Assembly: GCA_001596155.1 (NCBI GenBank)
Contig: CP014771.1
Coordinates: 1 to 64,000 of the forward strand
Length of the DNA stretch: 64,000 bases
Source of the DNA: Hymenobacter psoromatis
GTDB taxonomy: Bacteria > Bacteroidota > Bacteroidia > Cytophagales > Hymenobacteraceae
Direction of reading: 5' to 3'
The notes under the pieces are model-generated. The model saw nothing but the letters and a program-made list of their open reading frames with translations, had not been told where the DNA came from and did no database searches. Shown here piece by piece: positions 12,972 through 29,357 of this stretch (positions within the stretch are counted from its first letter, which is position 1; the number at the start of each line of letters is the position of its first letter). Both the position numbers and the translations under genes were made by a program.

Positions 12972-13061
12972 GTCATTCCGAGCTTGCCGAGAAATCTCGC
13001 TCGCGCCGTTCGGGTGTCGGTCAACGATGCGAGCGAGATTCCTCGGCAAGCTCGGAATGAC
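12972..13061. repeat. REP-like long hairpin, GTCATTCCGAGC family (copy 1)
   Basis: Arms 12972-13003 and 13030-13061 are nearly perfectly complementary over 32 bp (GTCATTCCGAGCTTGCCGAG core). The same family recurs at 20984-21090 and 24070-24205, with a related form at 60273-60369. It lies between fmt and the NamZ-like gene. Confidence 0.9.
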
Positions 13062-20983: not shown

Positions 20984-21090
20984 AAAAGAATGTCATTTCG
21001 AGCTTGCCGAGAAATCTCGCCCGCCCCGTTGAACGACACCCGAATAGCTACGAGCGAAATTCCTCGGCAAGCTCGAAATGACGTTCTTTT
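20984..21090. repeat. REP-like long hairpin, GTCATTCCGAGC family (copy 2)
   Basis: Inner arms 20992-21019 and 21051-21082 (GTCATTTCGAGCTTGCC core) are flanked by AAAAAGAA and TTCTTTTT, which extend the stem. It lies downstream of nothing transcribed towards it and upstream of the rsr leader region. Confidence 0.85.
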
Positions 21091-21188: not shown

Positions 21189-21219
21189 TTGCGCAGGTAA
21201 AATAATTGCCCCACCTTTG
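21189..21219 (+). promoter_or_regulatory. Candidate promoter before a small leader ORF
   Basis: TTG at 21189-21191 and CACCTTTG at 21212-21219, spaced 20 nt, approximate the Bacteroidota TTTG / TAnnTTTG promoter. It would start a transcript about 15 nt before the small ORF at 21241. Confidence 0.4.
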
Positions 21220-21240
21220 TCACGCTAAACCCCAAACACC

Positions 21241-21321
21241 ATGTACCACCACCTGATAAGCTTGCGCAATTCGGATAAAAAGCAGCCAGAAAAGCTGCTC
21301 CGGCTCGGTACGTTTGCCTGA
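21241..21321 (+). CDS. Possible 26-aa leader peptide upstream of rsr
   Basis: An ATG-TGA frame of 26 codons (begins MYHHLISLRN, rich in Lys/Arg) sits about 20 nt after a promoter-like sequence and 28 nt before a strong intrinsic terminator. That layout resembles an attenuation leader or a short regulatory RNA. It lies 385 nt before rsr. There is no homology evidence; the coding status is a guess from context. Confidence 0.3.
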   Translation: MYHHLISLRNSDKKQPEKLLRLGTFA

Positions 21322-21348
21322 TTTTAGCTTCCGCTAAGACTGTCGCCG

Positions 21349-21375
21349 CCCGAGCCCTTGCAGCTCGGGTTTTTT
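21349..21375 (+). terminator. Intrinsic terminator in the rsr leader
   Basis: CCCGAGC-ccttgca-GCTCGGG followed by T6. A perfect 7-bp stem. It would end the short transcript from 21189 or act as an attenuator ahead of rsr. Confidence 0.75.
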
Positions 21376-21705
21376 GTTGTTAGCCGGTTATCAGCCGCTT
21401 AGCTCATTCTCCCGATGCCCATATTCCGCCCCAGCTTCCTGCCTGCCTATTCCCAGCCGCAGTTCGGCCTAGCCGGGCGGGATGGGTATCCCCGTGGTTT
21501 TTCTTCGTGGTTTCGACACCGGTAATTAATCGGTAAGACCCTTGCGATAGTAAAAGCCCAGCCTCGAATTCCGGGTTTTTTTGTGTCTGTTTCGCAAATA
21601 AAAATTAATTTTTATTTGCTCGGAAAAGGTATGTCCACTGCAAATTGATAAGCGATAAAACCGCAATTAATTCAGCTTATTTCCCATCCGCTACTTATTT
21701 GGGTT
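21376..21705 (+). other. AT-rich leader region before rsr
   Basis: 330 nt with no gene recognised. It contains a weak terminator-like sequence near 21552-21581 (AAAGCCC ... GGGTTTTTTT) and an AT-rich palindrome near 21597-21620 (AAATAAAAATTAATTTTTATTT), possibly the rsr promoter region. Confidence 0.4.
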
Positions 21706-23235
21706 ATGCGTTTCAACTTTAATTCTCGCAGCAACGCCGCGCCGGTTCGCAACCACGAAAACGCGCCGGCCTACCCCCTCACTCCGGCCCAGAAGCTGTA
21801 CGCCGCCGTGGCTACGGCCGCCCTCAGCGACCAGTTCTACGAGTCGGCCGATACCCGCTTGGTCCGCCTGCGCGAATTGGTGGCCCGCAGCGACCCGCGG
21901 TTTGTGGCCCGGCTGGCGGTGTATGCCCGCGAGCAGCTCTACCTGCGCTCGGTGCCGCTGGTGCTGGCCGTGGAGCTGGCCCGCCTGCACCGGGGCGACA
22001 ACCTGGTGAGCCGCTTGGTGGCGCGGGTGGTGCAGCGCGCCGACGAAATCCCCGAGCTGCTGGCTTTTTATGCCCAGGCCAATGGCCGCACCGGCGCGAA
22101 AGTCCTGGGTCGGCTCTCCAAGCAGATGCAGCACGGCCTGGCCCTGGCTTTCAACAAGTTCGACGCCTACCAGCTGGCCAAGTACGACCGTGACGGTGCG
22201 GCCGTGCGCCTCCGCGATGCCTTGTTCCTGGTGCATCCCAAGCCCCGCGACGAGGCGCAGCGGGCGGCATTCGACCAGCTCGTGGCCGGTACGCTGCCGG
22301 TGCCCTACACTTGGGAAACCGAGCTGTCGGCCGCCGGGCAAGTCGCCTACCCCTCGCCCGCCGAGCGGCAGGCGGCCGTCACTAGCACCTGGGAAACGCT
22401 GGTGGCCAGCCGCCGCCTGGGCTACATGGCCCTGCTGCGCAATCTGCGCAACTTGCTGGAAGCCAACGTAAACGCCGAAACGCTGGCCCTGGCCTGCGCT
22501 ACCCTCGCCGACGCCGGCCAAGTGGCCCGCGCCAGGCAATTGCCCTTCCGCTTCCTGGCTGCCTACCGCGAGGTGCTGGCCCTGGAAGTGGGCGCGGCAC
22601 CCCAGGTGCTGGCCGCGCTGGAGGCCGCTATTGGGGCCAGCGCCCGCAACCTGCGCGGTTTCGGGGCCAACACCCGCGTGGTGGTGGCCTGCGACGTGTC
22701 GGGCTCGATGCAGCAACCCATTTCGCCGCGCAGCAAAGTGCTGCTCTACGACGTGGGCCTGGTGCTGGGCATGTTGCTGCAAAGCCGTTGCCAGCACGTA
22801 GTTACCGGCATCTTTGGCAACACCTGGAAGCGGGTGGCGCTGCCCCAGGGCCAGGTGCTGCGCAACGTGCAGGAGCTGTACCGCCGCGAGGGCGAGGTCG
22901 GCTACGCTACTAACGGCCACCTCGTGGTGCAGGACCTGCGCCAACGCCGCGAGGTAGTGGATAAAATCATGATTTTCACCGACTGCCAGCTCTGGGACAG
23001 CGCCGGGCAAGGCAGCACGCTGGCCCAGGAATGGGCCGCTTACCGCGCCAACGTGGCTCCCCAGGCCCGCCTCTACCTCTTCGACCTGGCCGGCCACGGC
23101 ACCGCCCCGCTCGACGTGCGCGCCGAGCACGGCGTGGCCCTCATCGCCGGCTGGTCGGATAAAATCTTCGACGTGCTCGCTGCCCTCGAAAAGAAGGGTA
23201 GCGCGCTCACCGAAATCGAGAAAATTGAGCTATGA
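21706..23235 (+). CDS. rsr: Ro60 orthologue Rsr (TROVE and vWA domains)
   Basis: A 509-residue protein, the usual Ro60 length. The N-terminal 300 residues form the HEAT-like TROVE ring (YPLTPAQKLYAAVATAAL, KVLGRLSKQMQHGLALAFNKFD). The C-terminal von Willebrand A domain has an intact MIDAS motif from Asp330 (CDVSGSM) and FTDCQLWD. Ro60 proteins bind Y RNAs on the outer ring surface and misfolded RNA ends in the hole. Bacterial Rsr can use Y RNA as a tether and gate for PNPase. The four Y-RNA-like units directly downstream and rtcB after them make one RNA-surveillance locus. Confidence 0.93.
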   Translation: MRFNFNSRSNAAPVRNHENAPAYPLTPAQKLYAAVATAALSDQFYESADTRLVRLRELVARSDPRFVARLAVYAREQLYLRSVPLVLAVELARLHRGDNLVSRLVARVVQRADEIPELLAFYAQANGRTGAKVLGRLSKQMQHGLALAFNKFDAYQLAKYDRDGAAVRLRDALFLVHPKPRDEAQRAAFDQLVAGTLPVPYTWETELSAAGQVAYPSPAERQAAVTSTWETLVASRRLGYMALLRNLRNLLEANVNAETLALACATLADAGQVARARQLPFRFLAAYREVLALEVGAAPQVLAALEAAIGASARNLRGFGANTRVVVACDVSGSMQQPISPRSKVLLYDVGLVLGMLLQSRCQHVVTGIFGNTWKRVALPQGQVLRNVQELYRREGEVGYATNGHLVVQDLRQRREVVDKIMIFTDCQLWDSAGQGSTLAQEWAAYRANVAPQARLYLFDLAGHGTAPLDVRAEHGVALIAGWSDKIFDVLAALEKKGSALTEIEKIEL

Positions 23236-23248
23236 AAACGGAGCGGCC

Positions 23249-23279
23249 CGGCCGGGCAATCAAGCGGAAACCCCGGCCG
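23249..23279 (+). other. Hairpin after rsr stop codon
   Basis: CGGCCGGG (23249-23256) pairs with CCCGGCCG (23272-23279) over a 15-nt loop, 14 nt after the rsr stop. No U-tract follows, so it may be an mRNA 3' stabiliser or a processing signal rather than a terminator. Confidence 0.5.
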
Positions 23280-23397
23280 GTCGCGTGAGTCAGTAACTAG
23301 ACTGGGAATAAATTAATTTATTCGGGTGTACTGAAACTGGCAGACTAATTGTTATACCCTTCATACGAATCTGTGCAATGATTCCCGACTTAGGCAA

Positions 23398-23485
23398 ACG
23401 GCTGACCCCTTAATGGCAGCCGCTGGCCGGAACGGCTACCCGCCGGGGCCCTGTTTGCTCCGGCGGCCCGTTCCAAACCGGCCGC
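23398..23485 (+). other. Two strong hairpins upstream of the Y-RNA-like array
   Basis: CGGCTG...CAGCCG (about 23399-23422) is followed by a long stem-loop in which GGAACGG pairs with CCGTTCC and, inside it, CCGCCGG pairs with CCGGCGG (about 23428-23476). It lacks the TGCCRTAG signature, so I do not count it as a Y RNA unit. It could be a degenerate unit or a processing hairpin. Confidence 0.45.
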
Positions 23486-23498
23486 CAACTCCCTCTCT

Positions 23499-23616
23499 TT
23501 CAGGTGCCGTAGGTTCGGCGTTACTTCGTGGTTGTCGGTGCAAGCCGTAGGGTTCGAATCCCACCGTCGCTACCCCCTCGGGCGCGGCGGATACGCCGGC
23601 CGCTTGTCGCCCTGAA
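23499..23616 (+). ncRNA. Y-RNA-like unit A (T arm, no D arm)
   Basis: The terminal stem TTCAGG/CCTGAA (23499-23504, 23611-23616) encloses the conserved internal-loop strands TGCCGTAG (23505-23512) and GCTTGTCGC (23602-23610). An inner stem CGGCGT/ACGCCG follows, then TACTTCG, shared with units B and C. Inside is a tRNA T-loop mimic GGGTTCGAATCCC (23550-23562), then a 7-bp acceptor-like stem CCGTCGC/GCGGCGG (23564-23570, 23584-23590). The D arm seen in B and C is missing. Assignment as a Y RNA rests on the repeated signature and on its place between rsr and rtcB. Confidence 0.75.
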
Positions 23617-23649
23617 TCTGGAGAAATTTCAATTTGTCGCCTATCTAAA

Positions 23650-23788
23650 TTAGGTGCCGTAGTCCGGCCATACTTCGATTGCGATTCGCCAGGTCGCGGG
23701 TTCGAATCCCGTTGGCTGCTGCTTCGGTAGCGGCTGTAGCTCAGCTTGGTAGAGCAGGATACAGAAGGCCGGCCGCTTGTTGCCCCAA
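23650..23788 (+). ncRNA. Y-RNA-like unit B with a complete permuted tRNA-like module
   Basis: Signature strands TGCCGTAG (23655-23662) and GCTTGTTGC (23775-23783), inner stem CCGGCC/GGCCGG, then TACTTCG. Inside, in circularly permuted order: a 5-bp T arm with loop TTCGAAT (23696-23712); the acceptor 3' strand GGCTGCT (23714-23720); a closed cap G-C(TTCG)G-T; the acceptor 5' strand AGCGGCT (23729-23735), pairing over 7 bp; and a D arm GCTC/GAGC with loop AGCTTGGTA (23739-23755) that keeps the GG dinucleotide. The Ro stem takes the place of the anticodon arm, as known for YrlA-type Y RNAs that mimic tRNA. Confidence 0.85.
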
Positions 23789-23802
23789 GCAGATACTCCT
23801 AC

Positions 23803-23940
23803 CTAAACCGGTGCCGTAGTCGCGCCTTACTTCGTTCCAGACGATGAGATGCGGGTGCAAATCCCGCCCGCCGGCCCCGCCGGCGGTAGCGTAAGCCAGC
23901 AACGCGCATACGTAGGCGCGGCGCCCGTTGCCCGGTTTAG
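23803..23940 (+). ncRNA. Y-RNA-like unit C with permuted tRNA-like module
   Basis: Perfect 9-bp terminal stem CTAAACCGG/CCGGTTTAG (23803-23811, 23932-23940), followed at once by T5. Signature strands TGCCGTAG (23812-23819) and GCCCGTTGC (23923-23931). The inner stem pairs about 9 bp (CGCGCC/GGCGCG core). The tRNA-like module has T arm GCGGG-TGCAAAT-CCCGC (23851-23867), acceptor-like stem CCGCCGG/CCGGCGG (23868-23874, 23880-23886), TA, then D arm GCGT/ACGC with a 9-nt loop lacking GG (23889-23905). The variant T loop and D loop differ from unit B. Confidence 0.8.
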
Positions 23941-23976
23941 TTTTTATTACCTGTAATAAGCAGGTTATTACCTAGT

Positions 23977-24056
23977 TGCCGGATGCCATAGGCCCGCGTT
24001 CCTTCGACCTGTCACGTCGCCTTCTGGCCCGACGCGGGCCGCTTGTCGCTCCGGTA
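23977..24056 (+). ncRNA. Y-RNA-like unit D (Ro stem only)
   Basis: Terminal stem TGCCGGA/TCCGGTA (23977-23983, 24050-24056), signature strands TGCCATAG (23984-23991) and GCTTGTCGC (24041-24049), and a perfect 9-bp inner stem GGCCCGCGT/ACGCGGGCC (23991-23999, 24032-24040). The 32-nt loop starts TCCTTCG, like TACTTCG in the other units, but holds no T or D arm. It may be a Y RNA stripped to its Ro-binding part. Confidence 0.7.
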
Positions 24057-24069
24057 GTTTGTGGGTGAA

Positions 24070-24205
24070 GCTGATTGGAAAGCTGCCTACCCGTCATGCA
24101 GAGCTTGCCGAGGAATCCCGCTCGGGCCGTTCGGACATCGTTCTATGAAGCGAGCGAGATTCCTCGGCAAGCTCGGAATGACGTTCCGCCGAATTCCTAA
24201 TCAGC
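24070..24205. repeat. REP-like long hairpin, GTCATTCCGAGC family (copy 3)
   Basis: Arms 24092-24124 and 24151-24183 share the family core. The outer flanks GCTGATT (24070-24076) and AATCAGC (24199-24205) add a second nested stem. It lies between Y unit D and the rtcB start, and could separate their transcripts. Confidence 0.85.
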
Positions 24206-24240
24206 CGCATCACTAATTCCAACTTCTAAATCTCAAAACA

Positions 24241-25641
24241 ATGGCTTCTATTTTACGGGGCAATGACTTGCGGCAGCTCGGGTTTCCCGAGGGCCGCGCT
24301 ATTGGGCTGGCGCTGGCGCAGCTGCAACGCAAAGAATTCAAGCGCCTGACCCAGGCCGACCAGCTCGAATTGTTAGGAGCAATTCTGGCGACGCCCACCG
24401 ATTTCCTCACCGACCTGGCCTGGAGCCACACCGCTGCCGCGCTGCTACCCCCCGTGTCGCGGCACATCGAGCTGGTGGCGCGCAAGCCCTACGTCACCTT
24501 CGGCGCCGAGCACATCGAGGCCGGGGCGGTGCACCAGATGGAAACCGCCATGAAGCTGCCCGTGACCGTGGCCGGCGCGCTCATGCCCGACGCCCACCAC
24601 GGCTACGGCCTGCCTATCGGCGGCGTGCTGGCCACCGACAACGCCGTAATTCCCTACGCCGTGGGCGTGGACATTGGCTGCCGCATGGCGCTTTCGGTGT
24701 ATGACCTGCCGGCTAAATTCCTTACCCAGCGCGTGCAGGAAGTGCGCCACCTGCTGCTCGAAAACACCCGTTTCGGCAGCGGTCGGAGCTGGGAGCGGGG
24801 CCAGCGCCTCGACCACGCGGTGCTGCACAGCGACACGTTTCAGGCCATTCCGTTCCTGAAAAACAAGCTCGACCGCGCCGCCGAGCAGGTGGGCACGTCG
24901 GGCTCGGGCAACCACTTCGTGGAATTCGGGATTGTCGAAATCACTGACCCGGCCAACGAAATGGGCCTACCCCTGGGCCAGTATGTGGGCGTGCTCTCGC
25001 ACTCGGGCTCGCGGGGGCTGGGCGCGGGCATTGCCGAGCACTACACCAAGCTCGCCAAAAACGTGTGCCAGCTGCCCGGCGAGGCCCAGCACCTCGCCTG
25101 GCTGGGCCTCGACACCGAGGCCGGCCAGGAGTACTGGGCCGCCATGAACCTGGCCGGCGACTTTGCCTCGGCCTGTCACGACCAGATTCACCGCCGCCTG
25201 GCGCGGGCACTGGGCGAAAAGCCGCTGGCGAAAGTGGAAAACCACCACAACTTTGCCTGGAAGGAGCGCCTGGTCGATGGCCGCGAGGTCATCACGCACC
25301 GCAAGGGCGCGACCCCGGCCGGCGCGGGCGTGCTTGGCATCATCCCCGGCTCCATGACGGCCCCCGGCTTTATTGTGCGGGGTAGGGGCGCGGCGGCCTC
25401 ACTGTCTTCGGCCTCGCACGGGGCCGGTCGGCTGCTGTCGCGCACCCGCGCCAAAGCCGAAATCGGCGAAGCCGACCTGCGCCGGCAGCTCGCCGACCAC
25501 GGCGTGGAGCTGCTCGGCGGCGGCCTCGACGAAGCCCCGCAGGCCTACAAAAACATCCACACCGTGATGGCCAGCCAGCGCGAATTGGTGGAGGTGCTGG
25601 GCTCCTTCACGCCCAAAGTCGTGCGGATGGATGGCACTTGA
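24241..25641 (+). CDS. rtcB: RNA-splicing ligase RtcB
   Basis: A 466-residue RtcB-family ligase that joins 2',3'-cyclic phosphate and 5'-OH RNA ends using GTP and Mn2+. Metal- and GTP-binding motifs are intact: VGVDIGCRM (Asp144, Cys147), GTSGSGNHFVEF, LSHSGSRGLG, ENHHNFAW, and HRKGATPA with His353, the family's guanylylation residue. It ends SSASHGAGRLLSR and ELVEVLGSFTPKVVRMDG. There is no rtcA or sigma-54 regulator rtcR next to it, unlike the enterobacterial operon. Co-orientation with rsr and the Y-RNA-like array suggests RNA repair linked to Ro surveillance. Confidence 0.95.
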   Translation: MASILRGNDLRQLGFPEGRAIGLALAQLQRKEFKRLTQADQLELLGAILATPTDFLTDLAWSHTAAALLPPVSRHIELVARKPYVTFGAEHIEAGAVHQMETAMKLPVTVAGALMPDAHHGYGLPIGGVLATDNAVIPYAVGVDIGCRMALSVYDLPAKFLTQRVQEVRHLLLENTRFGSGRSWERGQRLDHAVLHSDTFQAIPFLKNKLDRAAEQVGTSGSGNHFVEFGIVEITDPANEMGLPLGQYVGVLSHSGSRGLGAGIAEHYTKLAKNVCQLPGEAQHLAWLGLDTEAGQEYWAAMNLAGDFASACHDQIHRRLARALGEKPLAKVENHHNFAWKERLVDGREVITHRKGATPAGAGVLGIIPGSMTAPGFIVRGRGAAASLSSASHGAGRLLSRTRAKAEIGEADLRRQLADHGVELLGGGLDEAPQAYKNIHTVMASQRELVEVLGSFTPKVVRMDGT

Positions 25642-25730
25642 AAAAAAGTTCCATCGGGATAAATCCGCTAAGCTTAAGCATTGCGTAAAGTATCATAAGC
25701 TCGTCAGAGCTGTATTTTCATAGCTCAGAA

Positions 25731-25760
25731 AAGCCCGCTGCCCTTGGCTGCGGGTTTTTT
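25731..25760 (+). terminator. Terminator after rtcB
   Basis: CCCGC...GCGGG followed by T6, about 90 nt after the rtcB stop. Its end overlaps the stop codon of the convergent MOSC gene. Confidence 0.75.
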
Positions 25761-27791: not shown

Positions 27792-29357
27792 CTATTTCTC
27801 AAACGGATTGCCGGGCACCACCAGCACCACCCGTTCGCGCTCCACCAGCACCTGGCCGGGCAGCGAGCCCTTGGGCTTGCGCACAAACTTCTTGGGCGTC
27901 ACCGTGACCGGGCACAGCGAGTCGTGCTGGCGCTTGGAGTACCAGCCCGCCAGCTGTGCCGCACGCGCTACCACCGGCTCGGGCACCGGCTGCCCCGCCC
28001 GGTGCCGAATGACCACGTGCGAGCCGCTCACGTCCTTGGCGTGCAGCCACAGGTCGTCCTTGTGGGCATATTTCTGGGTTAGTAGGTCGTTGTTCTGCGC
28101 GTTGCGCCCCACCAAGATGGTAAAGCCGTGGTCTTCGAACACCTTGAACGGTAGCTCGTTAGCGGCCTTGGCGAGGGGGGTAGGGTCGAGGGCGTGCAGC
28201 TTGCGCCAGGCGCGCAGGCCGCGCAGCTCGGCCAGGGCGGGCTGGTCGTCCAGCTCTTCCAGCAACACCAGTGCTTGCAGCGCTTCCGCCTCGCGGTCGG
28301 CCACGCGGGTTTGGAGCTGGCGCTCTTCAATTTGCTGATTCTTGGCCTTGCGATACAGGTTTTCGGCGGTGCGCTGGGGCTTTTCCAGCGGCTTTAGCTT
28401 GATGATTACCGACTCATTGGTGTAAAAATCGACTACCTCCACTTGGGCCGTGCCCGGCGCGATAGCGTGCAGATTAGCCATAATGAGGTCGGCGCGGCGG
28501 CGGTAGCCTGCCTCGTGGGCCAGCGCGTGCAGCCGCTGGCCCGCCAGGTGCGCGCTGGTGCTGGCCTCCTCGGCGCGGCGCGTTAGCAGCTGGCGCAGCT
28601 GGCGGCGCTCGGTTTCGAGGGCGCGGCGGGCCAGCGCCAGCGGCACAAAGCGCCGCAGCGCGCCAATGGGGTCGGCACCGGGCAGCGTGTCCAGCACTTC
28701 GCCCAGCGGCATCAGGCTGAGGCGCGTGCGGCCGTCGAGGAAGATGATATAGTAGTGCGCCGGGTTCTCCAGCTCCGCGAGCAGTTCGGTGGCGAGCTGC
28801 TGCTTTAGCGCGGCCGGGGTGGGGTCATAGCCGCGCTGCTCGCGCAGGAAGCGCGCCGGCAGGTCGGCCAGCGCGGGCGGCAGCTTGCCGGCTTCGCCGA
28901 TAATGAGGGGGGTAGGGGCCGCGGCGGGCACCAGGTCGGCATCAGTAGCATAGCGCTGATGAAACAACTGGGCCGGCGCGCCCGGCGTGGGCCGAAAAAT
29001 AGCATTCGGCCGGGGGCCATACAGCTTGAAAACCAGCGTCGCGGCGTCTTCCACGAACCTGAATTGCAGCACCCTATCCTGCGGCCACACCTCCACGCTG
29101 GCCACCGTGCGGCCCAGCAGCTCTGGCAATAAGTCCACCGAATTTTGGCGGGCGCGGTGGAAGGTTTCGGGCAGCGCCAAGGCCGGAAAAGCCGCGCCTA
29201 ATTGCGCTTTCAGCCAAAACTCAGTACCCGTTTCGCTCAGCAGGCCGATTACCAACTCGTCCTTCTCCTGCGAAAAGCAGCTGGCCACGCGGTAGCCGCG
29301 CAGTTGCTCGGTAAGAGCCGGGGCCAGCTGGCGCAGAAAATAGTAGTTGGTATGCAT
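27792..29357 (-). CDS. NFACT family protein (RqcH/Rqc2-like)
   Basis: A 521-residue protein with the NFACT layout. The NFACT-N domain begins MHTNYYFLRQLAPAL and includes VFKLYGPRPNAIF. A helical middle coiled coil covers about 250-380 (ALETERRQLRQLL, KNQQIEERQLQTRVADREAEAL). The NFACT-R domain follows at about 405-505 (ILVGRNAQNNDLLTQKYAHKDDLWLHAKDVSGSHVVIR). RqcH adds alanine tails to nascent chains on stalled 50S subunits. Length and domains fit, but I have not checked every catalytic residue. The adjacent minus-strand 167-aa gene may be cotranscribed upstream. Confidence 0.85.
   Translation of the reverse strand: MHTNYYFLRQLAPALTEQLRGYRVASCFSQEKDELVIGLLSETGTEFWLKAQLGAAFPALALPETFHRARQNSVDLLPELLGRTVASVEVWPQDRVLQFRFVEDAATLVFKLYGPRPNAIFRPTPGAPAQLFHQRYATDADLVPAAAPTPLIIGEAGKLPPALADLPARFLREQRGYDPTPAALKQQLATELLAELENPAHYYIIFLDGRTRLSLMPLGEVLDTLPGADPIGALRRFVPLALARRALETERRQLRQLLTRRAEEASTSAHLAGQRLHALAHEAGYRRRADLIMANLHAIAPGTAQVEVVDFYTNESVIIKLKPLEKPQRTAENLYRKAKNQQIEERQLQTRVADREAEALQALVLLEELDDQPALAELRGLRAWRKLHALDPTPLAKAANELPFKVFEDHGFTILVGRNAQNNDLLTQKYAHKDDLWLHAKDVSGSHVVIRHRAGQPVPEPVVARAAQLAGWYSKRQHDSLCPVTVTPKKFVRKPKGSLPGQVLVERERVVLVVPGNPFEK

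Follow-up and report, generated by a model that had tools for sequence, protein, structure and literature searches.

The window analysed here comprises the first 64,000 nucleotides (forward strand) of contig CP014771.1 of Hymenobacter psoromatis (GenBank assembly GCA_001596155.1). Between rsr, the gene of the Ro60 orthologue, and rtcB, the gene of an RNA ligase, it carries a conserved array of four Y RNA-like units with covarying helices, a permuted tRNA order and anticodon-like loops. This region is probably an operon-like Ro60 locus, whose four small RNA genes would constitute a set of Y RNAs with a common stem and differing effector ends. Judging from the sequence, the units are most likely adaptor RNAs by which one Rsr protein would present a variety of tRNA surfaces to enzymes that act on tRNA, possibly serving as decoys.

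Four Y RNA-like units between rsr and rtcB

Gene rsr (21706-23235, + strand) encodes a protein of 509 amino acids with TROVE and vWA domains (Pfam PF05731, 91.1 bits, and PF25045 (vWA_Ro60), 29.4 bits), while rtcB (24241-25641, + strand) encodes a protein of 466 amino acids (PF01139, 276.5 bits). The Pfam matches of both genes, which lie on the same strand, are above cut-off. The stretch of about 1 kb between them bears no convincing gene and holds the four units, also on the + strand; the array starts 0.26 kb and ends 0.82 kb downstream of rsr, beside the rsr gene as bacterial Y RNA genes are. All four units have the same signature, namely TGCCRTAG on the 5' side (TGCCGTAG in units 1, 2 and 3, TGCCATAG in unit 4), CTTCG following the inner 5' strand of the stem, and GCYYGTYGC on the 3' side (GCTTGTCGC in units 1 and 4, GCTTGTTGC in unit 2 and GCCCGTTGC in unit 3). 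The 35 units behind the covariance model R1 (alignment A1) belong to a single class and include unit 2 but none of the other three. In the window, R1 retrieved the four units with E-values from 1e-38 to 4.2e-10, and the next match (E 0.55) was taken as chance. A first-pass annotation of this DNA had reported four units with a common signature between rsr and rtcB and had read them as graded forms of Y RNA genes beside a Ro60 gene; the R1 matches, the TROVE match and the differing completeness of the units all bear this out.

Unit 2 (23649-23789; R1 131.6 bits, E 1e-38) contains the complete permuted tRNA-like module. Its Ro upper stem (23664-23669 with 23767-23772; pair counts in A1) encloses an anticodon-like hairpin CGA-UUGCGAU-UCG (23676-23688), a T arm GCGGG-UUCGAAU-CCCGU (23696-23712; alignment A1), an acceptor-like stem that is closed by a loop and has no free CCA end (23713-23736; pair changes in A1) and a D arm GCUC-AGCUUGGUA-GAGC (23739-23755), the helix of which is invariant in A1. 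The loop UUGCGAU is one base away from that of the host tRNA-His, and the hairpin received an Arg gcg call when the unit was de-permuted. Unit 3 (23806-23937; 86.6 bits, E 7.6e-25) is a permuted tRNA-like module with a degenerate D arm. It bears the anticodon-like hairpin UCG-UUCCAGA-CGA (23832-23844; Trp cca call when de-permuted) and a T arm (23851-23867).

The other two units are less complete, and neither has the permuted combination of T, acceptor and D arms found in unit 2 and, with a weak D arm, in unit 3. Unit 1 (23499-23616; 45.4 bits, E 3.8e-12) consists of the Ro stem, a GNRA-like hairpin (CGGU-GCAA-GCCG), a T arm (about 23548-23564) with the same loop, UUCGAAU, as in unit 2, and a closing acceptor-like stem; neither a D arm nor a 7-nucleotide anticodon-like hairpin was found in it. 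Its class (cluster 49) comprised 39 units in 34 loci, window included, and also takes in related variants. Unit 4 (23978-24055; 38.8 bits, E 4.2e-10; class alignment A2) is reduced to the Ro stem and an anticodon stem-loop, CGAC-CUGUCAC-GUCG (24005-24019), whose loop is identical to that of the genome's tRNA-Asp(GUC). T and D arms are absent from unit 4.

The sequence TTTGTCGCC at 23633-23641, between units 1 and 2, resembles the 3' remnant of a deleted unit. Where the window has this putative remnant, two additional units are present in the closest named rsr locus, that of Hymenobacter sp. UV11 (L003; 93% identity, the window's own record possibly being excluded from the comparison). Since seven units are present in L003, among them a Leu-like one lacking from the window, the window's array looks reduced.

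To compare related loci, the best 80 of 313 loci encoding an Rsr relative were used; in a protein database search, 5680 Rsr relatives were obtained among 8000 proteins scored. The 5' motif matched 448 times in the 354,044 bases downstream of the 80 rsr genes (452 with the window's four), against 31 matches on the other strand of that DNA and 69 in 501,391 bases upstream, counts that on all sides take in matches without a matching 3' stem. A stricter motif ending kept 414 of the 452 matches, a few of which lie in rtcB or past the array. At least four motif units were present in 69 of the 80 loci. Model R1 gave 400 matches at E <=0.01 in the same loci (300 of them listed), its own training units included apart from the window's one, and 66 matches in a set of 27 Bacteroidota rsr loci. 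Among 61 genomes of the same genus, 46 matched R1 at <=1e-7, 42 had at least three matches and 15 had none; tRNA genes may contribute to these counts, one of the four matches counted for the own genome being such a case. The motif pair was thus conserved in related loci, which rules out the lack of conservation that the first-pass annotation had named as grounds for refutation. Its view of a four-member array as exceptional was not supported, all the more as a phage described below carries six units. When R1 was run on the own genome (150 of 2815 candidates scored), 23 matches were obtained at E <=1: units 1 to 3, 19 at tRNA genes and one elsewhere (E 0.25), unit 4 not being among the matches listed.

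Covarying helices, permuted tRNA order and anticodon-like hairpins

Minimum-energy folds of single units did not recover a tRNA-like shape, and covariation was therefore used instead. Alignment A1 contains 35 of 48 units passing a class filter, with the distance from CTTCG to CC fixed within a few bases. Its structure is made up of two Ro-stem helices, the anticodon-like hairpin, a two-pair helix joining this hairpin to the D side, the T arm, the acceptor-like stem and the D arm. Over the 36 pairs, 96.9% of cells were paired, against a shuffle mean of 83.7% and 34.7-47.3% in slid controls. Double changes occurred in 162 cells (shuffle mean 36.6), and both sides had changed in 22 of the 36 pairs. 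Compensatory changes were found in the Ro stems, the T arm and the acceptor-like stem, with double changes in 6 of 7 pairs of the Ro upper stem and both-side changes in all 8 pairs of the acceptor-like stem among the 35 sequences. The anticodon-like hairpin was paired in 88.7% of cells, the shortfall coming from rows where it sits one base out of place. Neither the D arm nor the two-pair helix shows any variation in A1; both are thus conserved, yet give no evidence of covariation. The invariant columns include positions of the D arm and of the T loop.

The short class of unit 4 behaved similarly with respect to its stem. Alignment A2, with 24 of the 26 cluster units (L025 and L035 were excluded as diverged), had 98.5% of cells paired and 38 double changes against 9.7 in shuffles, both sides having changed in 5 of 8 Ro upper-stem pairs, while the anticodon hairpin was nearly invariant. 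Helices 1 and 2, compensatory in both alignments, form the long stem from paired ends that, together with a conserved motif, is typical of bacterial Y RNAs.

A long unit runs from the 5' strand of the Ro stem through the anticodon-like hairpin, a variable region, the T arm, the loop-closed acceptor stem and the D arm to the 3' strand of the Ro stem. By its sequence, the long module reads as a tRNA opened at the anticodon stem and closed at the acceptor. ARAGORN found no tRNA gene, with arms in tRNA order, within the array. It was then given, with the Ro stem omitted, those units in which both a T arm and an acceptor-like stem had been found. With a fixed joint, tRNAs were recognised in 96 of 278 de-permuted units, compared with 1 of 278 left in natural order, 10-19 after halves had been swapped between units and 0 after shuffling. 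With the joint varied, 128 of 276 units were recognised in tRNA order, against 51, 52 and 54 mispaired and 0 shuffled. As the joint is arbitrary in the fixed-joint run, anticodon calls were taken from the joint-varied run.

The best off-array R1 match in the genome (G000:C3:1478084-1478226; 48.9 bits, model positions 29-114) spans tandem tRNA-Lys genes, because the 3' half of one gene followed by the 5' half of the next has the permuted order. Tandem tRNA genes are thus a possible origin of the module.

An anticodon-like hairpin follows CTTCG in many units. Counting hairpins with at least three Watson-Crick pairs directly after CTTCG in 367 distinct contexts, loops of 4, 5, 6, 7, 8, 9 and 10 nucleotides were found in 17, 40, 18, 103, 20, 44 and 14 contexts, respectively, whereas shuffles gave means of 21-23 at every loop size and a maximum of 32 for 7 nucleotides. 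Among the 103 loops of 7 nucleotides, U33 was present in 87 and a purine at position 37 in 82. In 52 of 70 units having such a hairpin, ARAGORN (joint varied) called the anticodon of the hairpin's own loop. The loops were also compared with the 41 distinct anticodon loops of the genome's own tRNAs. Exact host loops started 0-4 nucleotides after CTTCG in 80 of 414 units, which represent 56 distinct contexts and 12 loops. Averages over 1000 sets with randomised anticodons were 11 units, 8 contexts and 4.7 loops; the observed number of units or of contexts was reached by none of these sets, and that of loops by one.

Within A1, a three-pair hairpin was present in 32 of 35 units, a proportion that is partly selected because the class filter favours such hairpins, so that the count over 367 contexts is the fairer test. 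Of these 32 units, 31 have U33 and 30 have A37, while positions 34-36 display 13 anticodons, UUU being the commonest (14 units). Members of the A1 class include units with the exact tRNA loop for Lys, Asn, Gln, Glu or Ile, and an exact His loop was found outside the class filter (L042, position 8376; R1 120 bits). In the 24 units of A2, the tRNA-Asp loop CUGUCAC is largely kept, with U33 in all 24, G34 in 21, U35 in 21, C36 in 22, A37 in 16 and C38 in 18. Of the two short-class members outside A2, L025 is without the Asp loop and L035 has CCUUCUU.

Isotypes were scored with the acceptor and the anticodon loop excluded. One tRNA was clearly best for Leu-like units (e.g. L003, L012, L020 and L039), Ser-like units (L023 and L036) and Gln-like units (L046, L074 and L079). 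Many other units share a common tRNA body of ambiguous isotype.

Distribution of the locus and comparison with known systems

Within Bacteroidota, a TROVE domain was present in 28 of 395 genomes sampled. In the DNA examined around the 80 rsr genes, rtcB lies downstream of rsr in 61 loci, including all 41 of L003-L043, lies upstream in 5 and was not found in 14. A second rtcB-like stretch follows the first rtcB in L012, L014, L028, L035 and L039. Two further genes recur in these loci, as judged by similarity to the proteins of L005. A microbial-type PARG gene stands between rsr and rtcB in 24 of the 80 loci (6855-7703 in L005, PF10021, Pfam-tested in that locus), a placement that suggests a link of Ro60 and RNA repair to ADP-ribose removal. 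A PcfJ-like gene was found in 27 of the 80, in 8 downstream of rsr, between it and rtcB, and in the others upstream (9293-10591 in L005 and 7723-9030 in L003; PF14284, Pfam-tested in L005 and L053). Neither gene is present in the window.

Six TROVE-containing loci from outside Bacteroidota were searched with R1. Units were retrieved from Caulobacter phage CcrColossus (six), Brevundimonas phage Papperlapapp (three), a Rhodococcus plasmid (two) and a Deinococcus plasmid (one). The two best matches on a Halobaculum plasmid were at tRNA genes and the rest were weak (E 0.016 and 0.03), and a Pseudomonas plasmid gave no R1 match at E <=1. Of the 12 outside-phylum units examined, 5 have a 7-nucleotide hairpin with at least three pairs after CTTCG, and one more has such a hairpin starting elsewhere. 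The Asn loop on a UCGA/UCGA stem occurs both in CcrColossus and in Rhodococcus, whose other unit bears the Pro loop UUUGGGA on a three-pair stem. In CcrColossus, one unit is Ser-like by both halves and one has an exact tRNA-Asn loop. Since phage and other-phylum TROVE loci carry them, the array and the hairpin both extend beyond Bacteroidota. As in the window, the arrays of the two phages adjoin a TROVE (Ro60-like) gene, but they lie upstream of it whereas the window's array is downstream of rsr, and nothing is annotated as rtcB within 3 kb on either side of the phage TROVE loci. A GenBank tRNA-Gln annotation at 2155-2222 of the CcrColossus locus (L178) falls inside the Y RNA unit 2151-2315 and is probably a misannotation.

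The closest described RNA is YrlA (Rfam RF02553) of Salmonella and others, which likewise has a Ro stem formed from the two ends, a permuted T arm, closed acceptor stem and D arm, and a gene adjoining rsr and rtcB. Unit 2 aligns with RF02553 from end to end (35.7 bits, E 6.8e-6), below the gathering score of 69, which no unit in the window or in 12 related loci scanned reached. Compared with YrlA, unit 2 adds the anticodon-like hairpin on its 5' side, and units 1 and 4 are without the D arm or without the entire tRNA core. The YrlA arms named in the text covered of PMC8394870 are the D, T and acceptor arms, and the same source reports modification of the tRNA-like domain by DusA and TruB. The Salmonella rsr-yrlBA-rtcBA operon (PMC7790460) brings together rsr, Y RNA genes and rtcB as here; its name, as given in that source, implies two Y RNAs instead of four. 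Of the components of an rtcBA RNA repair operon, the genome of H. psoromatis has RtcB, with two genes, while neither RtcA (PF01137) nor the activator RtcR (PF06956) had a match in the whole genome, as the first-pass annotation had foreseen. Related Bacteroidota loci further differ from the Salmonella operon by the PARG-like and PcfJ-like genes. In Deinococcus, Rsr joins a Y RNA, as it may here, and PNPase in RYPER (Rsr-Y RNA-PNPase). The D. gobiensis plasmid has a unit beside its TROVE gene (R1 E 3.7e-23), the one match in the 7 kb examined and one without a 7-nucleotide anticodon-like hairpin, against four units in the window.

Neither the placing of Y RNA genes beside rsr and rtcB nor the mimicry of tRNA through permutation is new; a bacterial Y RNA that superposes on tRNA with a circular permutation is described in the text covered of PMC11472068. 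The anticodon-like hairpin, the members with a stem-loop or a T arm only, and the mixed isotype sets are provisionally new beyond the literature covered. The titles and abstract openings searched, which do not extend to the full texts of the family-defining papers, contained nothing on anticodon loops in bacterial Y RNAs or on sets of isotypes among them. Loci with several Y RNAs may well be in print already: Chen et al. in 2014 reportedly found likely Y RNAs near Ro60 in more than 250 species, with at least one per species having a tRNA-like domain. As for the first-pass interpretation, its genes, graded units, rtcB and absence of RtcA and RtcR stand and its claim of exceptionality finds no support; the tRNA pieces, their permutation and the anticodon-like hairpins had been overlooked.

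Some other features of the locus were recorded. Only two solved structures, 9l5y and 9kop, match Rsr by sequence, both named TROVE domain-containing protein. A promoter and terminator scan found none and is uninformative because promoters of Bacteroidota differ. A palindromic repeat, with arms containing AGCTTGCCGAGGAATC, is present three times in the window (12981-13052, 21001-21073 and 24092-24185), one copy lying upstream of rsr and one between the array and rtcB; its arms have 6 matches in the window against 0.01 expected. The Rfam matches MIR403, AaHKsRNA41, mir-584 and mir-1822 at 24092-24185 were set aside as chance, since they fall on this palindrome, whose arms recur in three places. 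About 2 kb past rtcB, an NFACT (RqcH-like) gene (27792-29357, opposite strand) adjoins a tRNA-Leu gene.

Possible roles of the RNA set

If the units are adaptor RNAs, each would present the same kind of putative Rsr-binding stem together with a different effector end. In units 2 and 3 this end is a permuted tRNA, the 5' strand of whose anticodon stem is interrupted by the Rsr stem; unit 1 retains the T arm and closing stem, and unit 4 offers solely an anticodon stem-loop resembling that of tRNA-Asp. By analogy with known bacterial Y RNAs, in which Rsr binds the stem and the Y RNA can tether PNPase (PMC8394870, PMC4726728; text covered), Rsr would bind the common stem and the free module would dock a partner. 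It is quite possible, if short of probable, that the main role of the modules is to engage or decoy enzymes, replacing tRNA before tRNA-recognising enzymes during RNA damage. They could lure anticodon nucleases off real tRNAs, or keep tRNA enzymes at Rsr near RtcB, and variable anticodons in one class would suit a changing set of attackers. More speculatively, and in our opinion rather doubtful, the arrays could be libraries of decoys, made of permuted tRNAs that bear anticodons and represent several isotypes, the Ro stem sitting at the site where anticodon nucleases cut. Bacteria and jumbo phages would carry them against tRNA-cutting toxins or defence nucleases, and their anticodon identity would shift from species to species with the attackers. 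Hughes et al. 2020 suggested that YrlA might act as a decoy for an anticodon nuclease (PMC7790460).

Several observations weigh against such roles, or against the array being as distinct as proposed. The same source reports that Salmonella YrlA is not cut by the anticodon nuclease (PMC7790460). No 7-nucleotide hairpin follows CTTCG in 264 of the 367 contexts, and the 5- and 9-nucleotide loops also exceed shuffles. In the window, only the loop of unit 4 is an exact host loop; those of units 2 and 3 are not, and the isotype of both units is ambiguous. Only some classes show clear isotype agreement between the two halves (mean correlation 0.20, or 0.05 after permutation). Agreement lies above the locus's own permutation mean in 31 of 34 loci, and 5 of 34 have p <=0.1, a level that 20 of the 34 cannot reach because they have three units each (minimum 0.167). 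The loop and ARAGORN counts are not independent since the units of the 80 loci are related. Some exact loops look like chance as well, namely those of the short CUGAAAA (Phe) and the CUCCAAA (Trp) units, not accepted as exact-loop cases since most of these units by eye have no adjacent stem, and UUCCUAA of Flavobacterium, which by eye lies within the Ro stem. Single-sequence folding energies of units 1 to 3 are not unusual (z 0.33, 0.18 and -1.78; unit 4, -2.93), and the tandem repeat finder did not report the array. Tried alone as a genome-wide marker, the 5' motif gave 10 matches (3 in the array) against 13 for a reversed control, and was rejected. In the window, every Rfam family stayed below its gathering score. 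Finally, a comparison with PADLOC gave no model match, whether for Rsr, for RtcB or for the L005 proteins resembling PARG and PcfJ.

Several other explanations were weighed. The one that survives best, which we nevertheless think unlikely, is that the units are RYPER-like tethers, each Y RNA linking Rsr to PNPase or another RNase for the degradation of structured RNA, including broken tRNA. This view overlaps with that of adaptor RNAs, except that a general tRNA shape would suffice and the anticodon loops would go unread. Tethering of PNPase by a Y RNA is a described bacterial mechanism, a PNPase domain is encoded in the genome, and the invariance of D-arm and T-loop positions in A1 would fit it. 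One tether would be enough, however, and neither the exact host loops and the Leu-, Ser- and Gln-like bodies nor the retention of G34, U35 and C36 in nearly all stem-loop-only units is explained.

It is improbable that the modules are a by-product of descent, captured from tandem tRNA genes, with loops that are remnants under weak selection. The tandem tRNA-Lys match of R1 speaks for such a history, but free remnants would be expected to lose their frame, whereas U33 and A37 are kept in the aligned A1 units while positions 34-36 vary, and the Asp loop is largely kept in A2. Still less probably, the units could be RtcB substrates or processing signals, the array transcript being cut and joined, for instance by tRNA enzymes and RtcB, and the RNAs reporting or regulating repair. 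The frequent position of rtcB downstream of rsr agrees with this, as does the lack of an RtcR to sense tRNA halves; against it, rtcB lies upstream or was not found in the remaining loci, and those of Pontibacter and Rufibacter among these keep the units. That the units are functionless tRNA pseudogene debris, as their clear resemblance to tRNA might suggest, is hardly credible and already refuted, unless the alignments are wrong, by the compensatory changes described above for the Ro stems, the T arm and the acceptor-like stem, and it fits poorly with units that are conserved throughout the phylum and in phages.

What Ro60 and Y RNAs do in bacteria has been worked out mainly in Deinococcus. 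Model R1 and the unit classes provide an annotation handle where Rfam at gathering scores reports nothing. If one Rsr indeed works with Y RNAs that copy different tRNAs, anticodon loops included, the role of the tRNA-like domain would become directly testable, as each unit would predict a tRNA and hence candidate partners or nucleases. Ro60 would then be tied to tRNA damage and repair and, through the phage arrays, to phage-host conflict.

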